A stretch of 64,000 bases of DNA from Candidatus Micropelagos thuwalensis. Its GTDB lineage: Bacteria; Pseudomonadota; Alphaproteobacteria; RS24. The translations under genes were made by a program, and so were the position numbers. Each line of letters starts with the position of its first letter. The stretch's first letter is position 1. Shown here piece by piece: positions 12,848-47,891 of the stretch. A model generated the notes under the pieces. The model saw nothing but the letters and a program-made list of their open reading frames with translations, was not told the DNA's origin and did no database searches. The stretch is taken from positions 620,001 to 684,000 of the forward strand of contig NZ_AWXE01000001.1 of the NCBI RefSeq assembly GCF_000469155.1, written 5' to 3'.

Positions 12848-13339
12848 TCAGGTGCGACGCAATGTTACAAAACTAACATCAGCTGTGTCATTTTCACCAG
12901 CTTGCACATCTTCTCTAGACGCCTCATGCCACGCATCAGGATTTGAAAGGCGAAAATAAGTATCCCCTTCCGGCGCGGCATGTACTTTCGTAAGGTGCAA
13001 AATATCAGCTTGAGCCTCAAAAGCTTTGTAAATCTCTCCACCCCCAATAATCATAACCCTTTTTGAGCCTGTCTCTTTCGAAGCTTCCAGAGCCGCTTCG
13101 GGGGAGTTAACGACAAGCGCGCCTTCTGGCAGGTCAAGCTTTGAACGGGTAATAATAATATTCAGTCGGCCCGGTAACACGCCCGGTAGCGACTCCCATG
13201 TATGCCGCCCCATTATAATTGGCAATCCCATTGTGATTTTCTTAAAACGCTTAAGGTCTGTTGAAAGACGCCAGGGCATTTTACCGCCATGCCCAATAAC
13301 GCCGTTTTCTGCAACAGCAACAATCATCTCAATCTGCAT
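12848..13339 (-). CDS. folA: Dihydrofolate reductase
   Basis: Reduces dihydrofolate to tetrahydrofolate with NADPH, recycling the cofactor oxidised by ThyA. 163 residues, typical of chromosomal type I DHFR. The start MQIEMIVAVAENGVIGHGGKMPWRLSTDLKRFK includes the conserved PW and the active-site acidic residue (Asp in STDLKRFK). GLPIIMGRHTWESLPGVLPGR is the NADPH/loop region, and IIGGGEIYKAF is the second cofactor motif. It starts 3 bases after the thyA stop, forming a thyA-folA operon. It is followed by a 127-base gap before rpoN. Confidence 0.95.
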   Translation of the reverse strand: MQIEMIVAVAENGVIGHGGKMPWRLSTDLKRFKKITMGLPIIMGRHTWESLPGVLPGRLNIIITRSKLDLPEGALVVNSPEAALEASKETGSKRVMIIGGGEIYKAFEAQADILHLTKVHAAPEGDTYFRLSNPDAWHEASREDVQAGENDTADVSFVTLRRT

Positions 13340-13342
13340 GAT

Positions 13343-14137
13343 TTAAACCGCAATTGGCGCACGAATGTGGGGCTGCGCTTCATAGTCTTCAAGAGAAAAA
13401 TCTTCAAATACAAAGTCAAAAATATCTTTCTTCTCCGGATTGATTTTCATAGTTGGCAAAGCCCCAGGCAAACGCGAAATTTGTGTTTGCGCCTGTTCCA
13501 GATGATTTAGGTAAAGATGCGCATCTCCCAATGTATGCACAAAATCTCCTGGCTCAAGTTCAAGCACTTGCGCCAGCATCATGGTCAGAAGAGCATAAGA
13601 GGCAATATTAAAAGGCACCCCAAGGAATATATCCGCAGAGCGTTGATAGAGCTGACAAGATAGCTTTCCGTCTGCGATATAAAACTGAAACAGACAATGA
13701 CAGGGAGGTAAGGCCATATCATCAACATCTGCGGGATTCCAGGCAGTTATTATATGGCGGCGGGAGTCAGGGTTATTTTTTAATTGCTCAACAAGGTTTT
13801 TGATTTGATCAATTTGACGTCCATCAGGGGTTTGCCAACTGCGCCACTGATAGCCATAAACAGGACCGAGATCACCATTTTCATCTGCCCAGTCGTCCCA
13901 TATCGAAACACCATTTTCCTTGAGGTAGGAAATATTCGTATCCCCCGATAAAAACCATAAAAGTTCATGAATTATGGACCTCAAATGAAGCTTTTTGGTT
14001 GTTAGAATTGGGAACCCCTTTGATAAATCAAAGCGCATTTGATAGCCGAAAATACTTTTAGTGCCAGTACCCGTTCGATCATCTCGGGTGACACCTTCTG
14101 ACATAACTTTTTCAAGAAGCGTTAAATATTGAAGCAT
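13343..14137 (-). CDS. thyA: Thymidylate synthase
   Basis: Folate-dependent methylation of dUMP to dTMP. With the ATG at 14137 the protein has 264 residues, the E. coli length. The only alternative is a GTG one codon earlier. Catalytic Cys146 lies in [11 protein letters not shown], the phosphate-binding Arg is in DDRTGTGT (Arg21), and other signatures are [11 protein letters not shown] and [19 protein letters not shown]. It is transcribed away from the tmRNA locus, so the 14138-14220 interval probably holds divergent promoters for thyA and ssrA. Confidence 0.96.
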
Positions 14138-14225
14138 CACACATAATTAAGGGATTCAGTTCCTTGCCTCAATCAGTTTATCAATTCCCCCTACTCATTT
14201 GCTGTGAAAAAGAGTATATGTAAGG

Positions 14226-14573
14226 GGTCGGTTTACCGACTATGGCGATAAACGGGCTTCGTAATAAACCCATCGGACCCGGGGGCAGTACCCGGCGCCT
14301 CCACCATTTATTCTCACAAGTTATTGGGGGGGCGAAACAGGATCGACGAGGGCGTAAAAGTTGTTTCCGTCGCTCGGTATTGTACCACCGTTATCGGGCT
14401 ATTTTTTAGTTGCAAATGACAACTATGCGGAAGTTGCTGTCGCTGCGTAAGTAGCGCCAACACTTCAATTCAAGCCCTTATCCGTCGCAGGGTAAGGCGG
14501 GGTCCGGCGGGCACCTGGCAACAGAAGCCCACCACTTCACTCGCTGGACTTTCATCCTATCGCATCGGGTAAC
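14226..14573 (+). ncRNA. ssrA: Circularly permuted two-piece tmRNA (ssrA)
   Basis: The acceptor piece lies first, ending in GGCGCCTCCACCA with the 3' ACCA at 14303-14306. The coding piece starts at about 14328. GGGGGCG (14328-14334) pairs with the CGCCTCC before ACCA, forming the 7-bp acceptor stem, followed by the conserved GAAACAGGATCGACG. The ends at the break also pair: TTACCGA and GCGATA (14233-14250) with TATCGC and TCGGGTAA (14558-14572). This permuted order is the known alphaproteobacterial (alpha_tmRNA) arrangement; roughly 20 bases between the pieces are removed during maturation. The RNA rescues stalled ribosomes with SmpB, which is not in this window. Exact mature ends are estimates. 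Confidence 0.93.
14412..14450 (+). other. tmRNA tag-peptide reading frame
   Basis: Within the coding piece, GCA at 14412 begins the codons for ANDNYAEVAVAA, ended by TAA at 14448-14450. With the alanine carried by tmRNA the appended tag would be A-ANDNYAEVAVAA. ANDN at the start and the AVAA end agree with other alphaproteobacterial tags: the N-terminal part is read by SspB and the last two Ala by ClpX. The resume codon is inferred from the family pattern. Confidence 0.85.
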
Positions 14574-14583
14574 TTTGAAGAAC

Positions 14584-15087
14584 ATGAACGAAATCGATTA
14601 CGAAAAATTAACCCACAAAGCTATGCTGAACCTTATCAGCGATATCTTATCCTCTGTTTCCGAAGAGGGGCTGCCCGGTGAGCATCACTTTTATATTTCC
14701 TTTAAGACCCAAGCTCCTAAAGTCTCAATATCCGACAGCTTGATGGCACAATATCCTGATGAAATGACGATTGTGCTGCAAAACCAGTTTGAAAACCTTA
14801 TCGTAACACCTGAAGGATTTTCCGTGCGTTTGAGCTTTAATCATACGCCACATGATCTCTATATTCCTTTTGACGCACTCACAAAGTTCTATGACCCTTC
14901 CGTGTCATTTGGCCTAGTACTGGAAGATATGACTGTGAGCGCGGCCTCTGCCCTTGCATCGGATAATCATAGGGAGAATGATCTTGAAGATATTGAAAAA
15001 CAAGAAGATTTGAAAAATCAAGAACCAGAAATCAACACCACTGGCGAGGTGGTGAGTCTTGAAAACTTTCGAGATAAAAATGACTGA
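14584..15087 (+). CDS. sspB: SspB, ClpXP adaptor for ssrA-tagged proteins (alpha type)
   Basis: Delivers tmRNA-tagged peptides to the ClpXP protease. The ATG at 14584 gives 167 residues and the usual start of the alpha family (IDYEKLTHKAMLNLI). A TTG at 14575 would fall on the tmRNA boundary. The substrate-binding domain is well conserved: GLPGEHHFYISF, QYPDEMTIVLQNQF, IPFDALTKFYDPSVSFGL. A polar acidic linker (about 122-153) leads to a C-terminal VVSLENFRDK motif, corresponding to the ClpX-tethering tail. The gene begins about 11 bases after the tmRNA 3' end, placing the tag RNA and its adaptor side by side. Confidence 0.92.
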   Translation: MNEIDYEKLTHKAMLNLISDILSSVSEEGLPGEHHFYISFKTQAPKVSISDSLMAQYPDEMTIVLQNQFENLIVTPEGFSVRLSFNHTPHDLYIPFDALTKFYDPSVSFGLVLEDMTVSAASALASDNHRENDLEDIEKQEDLKNQEPEINTTGEVVSLENFRDKND

Positions 15088-15178
15088 CCAACTTGGCGAC
15101 AAAACCAATAAATGCTAAATCTTCCCACACATTTTCTACATACATTATGTAATGTTTTTCGATTTAAAGAGGACAGCA

Positions 15179-16570
15179 ATGACCCAATCCCGCACTGAAA
15201 CCGACAGCTTTGGCCCTTTGGAAGTGCCCGAAGATAAATATTGGGGCGCACAAACTCAACGCTCGCTCGGGAATTTCAAGATTGGCGGAGAAACTATGCC
15301 AGAACCTATGATACGTGCCTTGGGGATTGTCAAAATGGCGGCGGCAAAAGCCAATATGTCCCTTGATAATCTTGAAAGTGATATTGGACAGGCAATTGTG
15401 TCGGCAGCCACTGAAGTTGCTGATGGTAAATTAAATAATCACTTCCCACTGGTGGTCTGGCAGACAGGCTCTGGCACACAATCGAATATGAATGCCAATG
15501 AAGTCATCTCTAATCGTGCGATAGAAATTCTAGGTGGTGAAATGGGTTCCAAATCTCCCGTGCACCCCAATGATCATTGCAATAGAAGCCAATCCTCAAA
15601 TGACACCTTTCCAACTGCCATGCACATTGCTGCGGCTGAAGAGGGAAGCAATCGCCTTTTGCCTGCGTTGAAACACCTTTATACCGCCCTGACTGCCAAG
15701 TCTGAGGCGTGGGCAGATATTGTTAAAATTGGACGCACTCATTTACAGGACGCCACCCCCCTGACGCTTGGGCAAGAGTTTTCGGGCTACGCCACACAGC
15801 TTAAATATTCTATTGAACGCGTCGAAACATCCATGCCGCGCCTTTTGGCATTGGCACAAGGTGGAACAGCAGTCGGGACGGGGCTGAACGCTAAACCCGG
15901 ATTTGCAGAAAAGTTTGCTGCAGAAGTCGCTGATTTTACAGGACTTGATTTTGTGACTGCGGAAAACAAATTTGAGGCTCTTGCTGCCCATGATGCATTT
16001 GTTGAAATGTCCGGCATGCTCAACACGATTGCCGCCTCGCTGAATAAGATTGCCAATGATATTCGTTTGCTCGGCTCAGGCCCCCGTTCAGGACTTGGTG
16101 AATTGAGCTTACCTGAAAATGAACCTGGTTCATCCATCATGCCAGGCAAAGTCAACCCAACACAATGCGAAGCTCTTACAATGGTTTGTGCGCAGGTCAT
16201 GGGCAATCATACGGCAATTACGGTTTCGGGGGCACAAGGGCATATGGAACTTAATGTGTTCAAACCCGTCATGGCCTATAATTTATTACAATCCATGCGC
16301 TTGATAGGTGATGCCGCAGTGAGCTTCACGGATAATTGTGTGGTGGGTATCGAAGCTAACGAAATCAATATTGAACAGTTGATGCAACGCTCACTTATGC
16401 TGGTGACGGCTCTAGCGCCAAAAATTGGCTATGACAATGCAACAACCGTCGCAAAGACGGCCCATAAGAACGGCACAACACTTCGCGAAGAAGCCGTTGG
16501 TCTTGGTTTTGTGACGGAAGCTGAATTTGAAGAGATTGTCCGTCCAGAAGATATGATTGCGCCAAAATAG
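15179..16570 (+). CDS. fumC: Class II fumarate hydratase
   Basis: TCA-cycle hydration of fumarate to L-malate by the iron-independent tetrameric enzyme. The ATG at 15179 has a clear RBS (AGAGGA, 7 bases upstream). A codon at 15152 would add nine non-family residues. 463 residues. The superfamily signature [11 protein letters not shown] is at 317-327 with the catalytic Ser. The catalytic His is in [10 protein letters not shown] (about 188), and [14 protein letters not shown] (97-109) forms the first substrate loop. It is followed 25 bases later by a small RHH protein, a pairing common in alphaproteobacteria. Confidence 0.96.
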
Positions 16571-47460: not shown

Positions 47461-47538
47461 TTAACACTCTCTTGAGTAAATGATACAGCCACCCAAAAAA
47501 TTAAAATCTGGGCAAAATGTATCTAATTATGAAAGAAG

Positions 47539-47891
47539 GATAGACAGTCTATAAGCCGGGTTCTGTCCTTATGTGAAAACACATAATGTGCAGTCATTCA
47601 TCTGGGATGACCGTTACCGGACACCTCTTGCAACCTACCCAAGCGACAACCTAGGAACTGGTTATGCGCCGCTTCTATTTGGTTTTGCTCCCGATGGGGT
47701 TTACCCTGCCATGCCCGTTACCGGACATGCGGTGCGCTCTTACCGCACCATTTCACCCTTACCCTGACGGGCGGTTTGTTTTCTGTGGCACTTTCCCTCA
47801 GGTCACCCTGGCCGGGAATTATCCGGCATCGTGTTCCCATGGAGCCCGGACTTTCCTCCCCTTCACAGAGGCGACTGCCCGACCGTCTATC
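47539..47891 (-). ncRNA. rnpB: RNase P RNA (bacterial type A)
   Basis: Catalytic RNA that matures tRNA 5' ends and, in alphaproteobacteria, may act on tmRNA precursors. On the minus strand the 5' end GATAGACGGTC (47891-47881) pairs with GACTGTCTATC (47549-47539) as helix P1. The conserved GGGGAGGAAAGTCCGGGCTCC follows soon after, GCAGGGTAAACCCC is present in the middle, and the 3' end reads GGACAGAACCCGGCTTATAG. Length about 353 bases. It lies between the amidase gene and the mraZ operator. Mature ends are estimated from pairing. Confidence 0.95.

Follow-up and report, generated by a model that had tools for sequence, protein, structure and literature searches.

The gene for the tag-encoding tmRNA (ssrA) and the gene for a putative reader of that tag (sspB) lie side by side in the 64,000-nucleotide stretch of Candidatus Micropelagos thuwalensis DNA analyzed here, referred to below as the window. 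The locus raises the question of whether the two genes share a transcript or are neighbors whose expression is separate.

Gene content of the ssrA-sspB locus

An initial sequence-only reading had described the two genes as adjacent and co-oriented, and this description holds. ARAGORN identified a single tmRNA in the window, of the permuted form, at positions 14214 to 14541 of the plus strand with the tag A-ANDNYAEVAVAA, and a true SspB gene begins on the same strand with the ATG at 14584 (Table 1). The Rfam model alpha_tmRNA (RF01849) matched positions 14188 to 14536 with 288.2 bits (gathering threshold, 50; E value, 5.6e-83) along its full length, from model position 1 to 355 of 355. The tag frame begins with a GCA resume codon and finishes in AA. 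With its permuted gene, acceptor piece first, and a tag of the form A-ANDN..., the RNA itself is no different from the known alphaproteobacterial two-piece tmRNA, as in Caulobacter, while the genus of the window has lost the U-tract after the 3' hairpin. The Caulobacter two-piece tmRNA was reportedly described by Keiler et al. in 2000. As in the known two-piece tmRNAs, the precursor of the window tmRNA would be cut into two pieces. Precursors of this type are thought to be processed by RNase P, and an RNase P RNA of bacterial class A was identified in the same 64 kb (47536 to 47890, minus strand; 320.8 bits).

Table 1. Features of the ssrA-sspB locus, numbered from the first nucleotide of the window
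Feature	Position	Strand	Evidence	Remarks
dfrA	12848-13339			Upstream of ssrA and divergent from it
thyA	13343-14140			Upstream of ssrA and divergent from it
Probable ssrA promoter	14192-14220	+		TATATG at 14215-14220 is a -10-like box; -35 not clear
tmRNA acceptor piece	14214-14306	+	ARAGORN start, Rfam alignment, sequence	Encoded CCA at 14304-14306 as its end
Intervening sequence separating the tmRNA pieces	14307-14325	+	Rfam alignment	Edges approximate
tmRNA coding piece	14326-14541	+	ARAGORN, Rfam	5' edge approximate
Tag reading frame	14412-14450	+	ARAGORN, sequence	ANDNYAEVAVAA then TAA
3' hairpin of the coding piece	14506-14533	+	Fold, sequence	GGCGGGC-ACCTGGCAACAGAA-GCCCACC
Weak tail after the 3' hairpin	14534-14541	+	Sequence	ACTTCACT
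ssrA-sspB gap	14534-14583	+	By eye	Weak promoter-like pair TGGACT (14545-14550), 17 nt, GGTAAC (14568-14573)
sspB	14584-15087	+	Pfam PF04386, alignment	SspB-alpha type, 167 aa, C-terminal VVSLENFRDK motif

The product of sspB, a putative tag-binding adaptor for ClpXP, matched the SspB family in Pfam (PF04386) with 139.4 bits against a cutoff of 27 and is the sole SspB match in the genome. It shares both the domain and the C-terminal motif of SspB-alpha; VVSLENFRDK aligns with VVSLDAFRKK, a motif conserved among alphaproteobacterial SspB proteins that we take to be the ClpX-binding tail. Solved relatives are 2NYS, 2QAS, and 2QAZ, presumably from Agrobacterium and Caulobacter, and the SspB structure paper is said to be that of Chien et al., 2007. 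Downstream of sspB lies fumC.

The spacing had been given as about 11 bases, with the 3' boundary of the tmRNA nearly touching the sspB ATG, which is incorrect for this genome. Counted to the ATG, the distance is 42 nt if the tmRNA ends where ARAGORN places it (14541), 47 nt with the Rfam boundary (14536), and 50 nt when measured from the close of the final hairpin stem (14533). A terminator or a separate transcription start between 14560 and 14584 had been named as evidence that would contradict co-transcription, and a consensus scan of positions 13900 to 15300 detected no sigma-70-like or terminator-like site in the gap. The one plus-strand terminator-like site in the scanned region is inside sspB, at 14624; as the scan was limited to loops of up to 8 bases, it is blind to the tmRNA's own 3' hairpin, which was treated separately. 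Folded alone, positions 14505 to 14545 gave -15.3 kcal/mol (z = -2.6), and in the window this hairpin is not followed by a U-run. The scan and this tail both speak against a simple intrinsic terminator separating the two genes here.

Conservation of the linkage in Alphaproteobacteria

To identify whether the adjacency is restricted to this genome, which would have spoken against a functional link, 289 genomes of the class were searched, with SspB present in 266 and an alphaproteobacterial tmRNA in 275. For 106 genomes the places of both genes are among the matches listed, and in 81 of these sspB follows ssrA on the same strand at a distance below 400 nt. The main survey then took the best-scoring 150 of the 275 tmRNAs (30 loci and 120 regions), a choice that favors well-conserved tmRNAs, and SspB was sought by profile. 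The arrangement used as the criterion for an operon (same strand, short gap, distant genomes), with the sspB start no more than 400 nt downstream of ssrA, was found in 114 of these 150 genomes; when each family is represented by a single genome, the count is 47 of 60. The adjacency is thus class-wide, and ssrA-sspB is a real, conserved gene pair made of known parts from known families; it is not a new kind of system.

Of the remaining 36 genomes among the best 150 of 275, five have SspB at 611 to 1,131 nt, and in the other 31 the profile detected no SspB within the retrieved DNA (including G201, which has no downstream DNA); four of the 36 lack any SspB hit. Opposite-strand SspB was found in none of the 150 fetched tmRNA regions. 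Among 22 lower-scoring SspB-bearing genomes, one of which (G030) is also among the 150, SspB lies closely behind the tmRNA in 11, and a twelfth (G077) was added by reading the sequence. Across the linked genomes, the distance from the last stem to the sspB start has a median of 78 nt and a minimum of 11 nt and is 30 nt or less in eight of the 114; the sequences of the reduced genomes G113 and G077 gave approximately 15 nt. Pelagibacterium, Telmatospirillum, and Pseudolabrys are among the genera with a short gap. In many Rhodobacteraceae, 0.5 to 3.1 kb of other DNA separates ssrA and sspB. Four loci of this family (L067, L068, L084, and L112) carry chromate-transporter-like and SnoaL-like genes, identified by eye and mostly on the same strand, between the two.

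The genes flanking the pair are much less conserved. In a check covering at least 500 nt upstream and under approximately 1.5 kb downstream of the tmRNA, thyA was close upstream of the linked pair in only 25 of 114 genomes and fumC was downstream in 18 of the 113 with room for it, so the ssrA-sspB pair has outlasted its surroundings.

The main study of alphaproteobacterial SspB is reportedly that of Lessner et al., 2007. No statement of an ssrA-sspB linkage was found in the literature searched, part of which was available as excerpts, and that study may already mention it. Two reviews (PMC3985003 and PMC8138137) cite Lessner et al. for SspB being found, or perhaps acting, in alphaproteobacteria, and the word sspB is absent from the accessible portion of a tmRNA-database paper (PMC11915505).

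Transcription of the pair

We consider it probable, from sequence comparison, that the two genes are transcribed in the same direction as a single unit dating from an early alphaproteobacterial ancestor, with sspB read through from ssrA. The class-wide linkage, the constant direction, the less conserved flanks, the lack of promoter enrichment in the gap, and the very short gaps of some genomes all argue for such a unit, while the enrichment of T past the hairpin and a box before the ATG in the genus of the window (both described below) count against it.

Promoter signals were scored with a sigma-70-like consensus against dinucleotide shuffles, so that other sigma factors are missed and relatedness is ignored in the P values that follow. 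Before ssrA the score reached 8.18, compared with 7.36 for the shuffled sequences (P = 8.9e-15; n = 114 linked genomes), and in alignable loci of the same family a TATAT-like box and an upstream CTGTG block are kept (anchor present in 15 of 26, read by eye). No enrichment was detected before sspB in the gap (6.85 against 6.74; P = 0.096; n = 107), in the gap extended backward over the final 60 nt of tmRNA sequence (P = 0.45; n = 114), or in the interior of the coding piece (P = 0.98; n = 114). Restricting the test to 47 family representatives gave P values of 4e-07 before ssrA and 0.16 before sspB. Where the genes are separated, a set that is mostly Rhodobacteraceae, promoter enrichment was present before sspB (P = 2.3e-05; n = 66, after exclusion of five loci whose upstream DNA was too short); it was not significant in the non-adjacent genomes of the class sample alone (P = 0.28; n = 10).

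These scores bear directly on the alternative that sspB is transcribed from a separate promoter, located in the gap or within the tmRNA gene, and that the adjacency merely saves space. In the genus of the window this promoter could be TGGACT-17-GATAAC, giving a nearly leaderless message. Most members of the genus keep a weak promoter-like box, CGCATCGG(A/G)TAA(C/G), right before the sspB ATG (read by eye, among close species), and the window has no Shine-Dalgarno match before sspB, which is consistent with a leaderless message; however, the window version of the box, GGTAAC, is poor and yielded no hit in the scan. The terminator-like U-tracts that follow the hairpin in sister genera also fit a separate promoter, but neither the gap nor the coding piece is enriched for promoters across the class, and in some genomes the stretch from the stem to the start codon, at approximately 15 nt or at 30 nt or less, is too short to hold an ordinary promoter. 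On balance, we regard an independent sspB promoter as unlikely. Still less probable is that the adjacency survives neutrally from an ancestral gene order, with no expression in common, as might be suggested by the loss of linkage in 36 of the best 150 of 275 genomes, 32 of which keep SspB, and by the other genes lying between ssrA and sspB in many Rhodobacteraceae, since the flanking genes have been shuffled far more often than the pair and its direction is invariant in the fetched regions.

The surveyed tmRNAs close with a G+C hairpin whose loop is nearly invariant and includes CAACAGAA; this motif, which anchored the hairpin count, is present in 150 of 150 (the best 150 of 275), with G201 cut at the contig end. 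The share of T in the first 10 nt past the hairpin was 0.37 against a background of 0.22 in linked genomes and 0.46 against 0.26 in unlinked genomes, and, in the same best 150 of 275, 26 of the 114 linked genomes and 13 of the 36 unlinked ones carry a run of at least four T residues within the 15-nt tail. The mean number of T residues in those 10 nt was 3.73 in adjacent and 4.60 in non-adjacent genomes (P = 0.005, ignoring relatedness), a hint that the U-tract is weaker where the genes adjoin. The tail is often ACTTTTTT in sister genera of the family and ACTTCACT or similar in the genus of the window. Given the class-wide T enrichment and the ACTTTTTT tails, the hairpin may be a real terminator in those sister genera; overall, it resembles a terminator whose strength varies and is often low.

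Under the single-unit reading, the promoter right before ssrA would drive transcription and RNA polymerase would encounter the hairpin, where most transcripts would probably end or be trimmed to give the mature two-piece tmRNA. A fraction would continue into sspB and provide the adaptor message, which cleavage would release, and easier read-through is expected in this genome from the loss of the U-tract. The supply of the tag and that of its adaptor would then both be governed by one promoter. Co-transcription had already been raised as a possibility in the sequence-only reading; its basis is now broader (class-wide co-directional linkage, less conserved flanks, no promoter enrichment in the gap, and gaps of 11 to 30 nt in some genomes), and from this we infer the shared transcript itself, which appears to be the best-supported explanation of the linkage.

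Stable RNAs and messages are known to share transcripts elsewhere. In Bacillus subtilis, the smpB-ssrA operon joins tmRNA to the trans-translation protein SmpB with ssrA last, whereas in the unit proposed here ssrA comes first and the partner is a degradation adaptor. The tRNA-tufB operon of Escherichia coli yields a stable RNA and a message from one transcript; in the present case the RNA and the protein serve one pathway, and the message would have to be released. The sspB gene of E. coli lies in the sspA-sspB operon, unlike that of the window, which is directly behind ssrA. In Orientia, Northern blots showed a tmRNA in two pieces and a precursor of 372 nt, according to the accessible part of PMC7335160; a precursor of this length does not extend far in that organism and counts against a shared ssrA-sspB unit.

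If the shared unit is real, tag and tag-adaptor supply would be wired to one promoter in most Alphaproteobacteria. An ssrA deletion that takes out the promoter may then silence sspB as well, and such deletions would be read differently.

Tag sequence and presence of the adaptor

The proposal that tag and SspB have co-evolved was examined by comparing genomes with and without the adaptor. A tag beginning with ANDN was found in 154 of 166 SspB-bearing genomes and in three of 18 with a tmRNA but no SspB hit (Fisher P = 2.9e-12, ignoring relatedness), while nearly all tags retain the terminal AA (165 of 166 and 18 of 18, respectively). Among the 166 genomes with a resolved tag, 146 came from the class survey and 20 served as lower-scoring controls, a further control (G113) having been dropped because its tag was not resolved. 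For the first 23 genomes that scored negative, the absence of SspB was checked again using an alphaproteobacterial profile. Four of the 18 (G115, G157, G170, and G435) have relatives in the same genus or family that carry SspB, such that their lack of a hit may reflect assembly gaps, and they remain counted as lacking it. On an rpoB tree of 29 genomes, which takes in G068 with its tmRNA of standard form, seven changes of SspB state are needed, at least four of which are forced by well-supported branches.

Going by the E. coli structures, we take the ANDN half to be the part of the tag bound by SspB. As ANDN is kept with SspB and mostly lost without it, this half appears to be held in place by the adaptor. 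Several exceptions exist. Eight of the 20 SspB-bearing controls have non-ANDN tags, several of them long and basic, and were counted against this idea; one of three members of an SspB-lacking family has ANDN; and G115 and the related G017 and G011 carry long, odd tags irrespective of SspB. Compensation of charge between tag and SspB was also considered and rejected, as a crude test revealed no correlation (Spearman coefficient, -0.10; P = 0.25; n = 129). The co-evolution proposal thus gains partial support, though of another kind, from the retention of ANDN and none from charge.

The class thereby offers a natural test of tag conservation, in which the adaptor-binding half persists with the adaptor and appears to decay after its loss, while the AA end, which the protease recognizes, is retained. 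A more far-reaching possibility, which we hold tentatively, is an operon present across most of the class with the tmRNA gene in the promoter-proximal position, in which the final hairpin would serve as a leaky attenuator, with the balance between tag maker and tag reader set by its U-tract, and the adaptor would keep ANDN under selection, the motif decaying when the adaptor is lost.

Three genomes placed in the class (G047, G068, and G231; loci L298 to L300) gave weak alphaproteobacterial tmRNA matches only and no SspB hit, and ARAGORN identified a standard, non-permuted tmRNA in two of them. Decayed tags were observed in two SspB-lacking families with small genomes, reading ANES or ANDK in one (f83; L291 to L293, L339, and L340) and AKSD, AKRD, or ANDD in the other (f39; L287 to L289, L335, and L336). 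In five reduced genomes (G177, G087, G253, G077, and G095; loci L358, L360, L361, L357, and L344), the tags are long, basic, and rich in R and K with internal N-x-N motifs, and a divergent sspB still lies directly behind the tmRNA gene.
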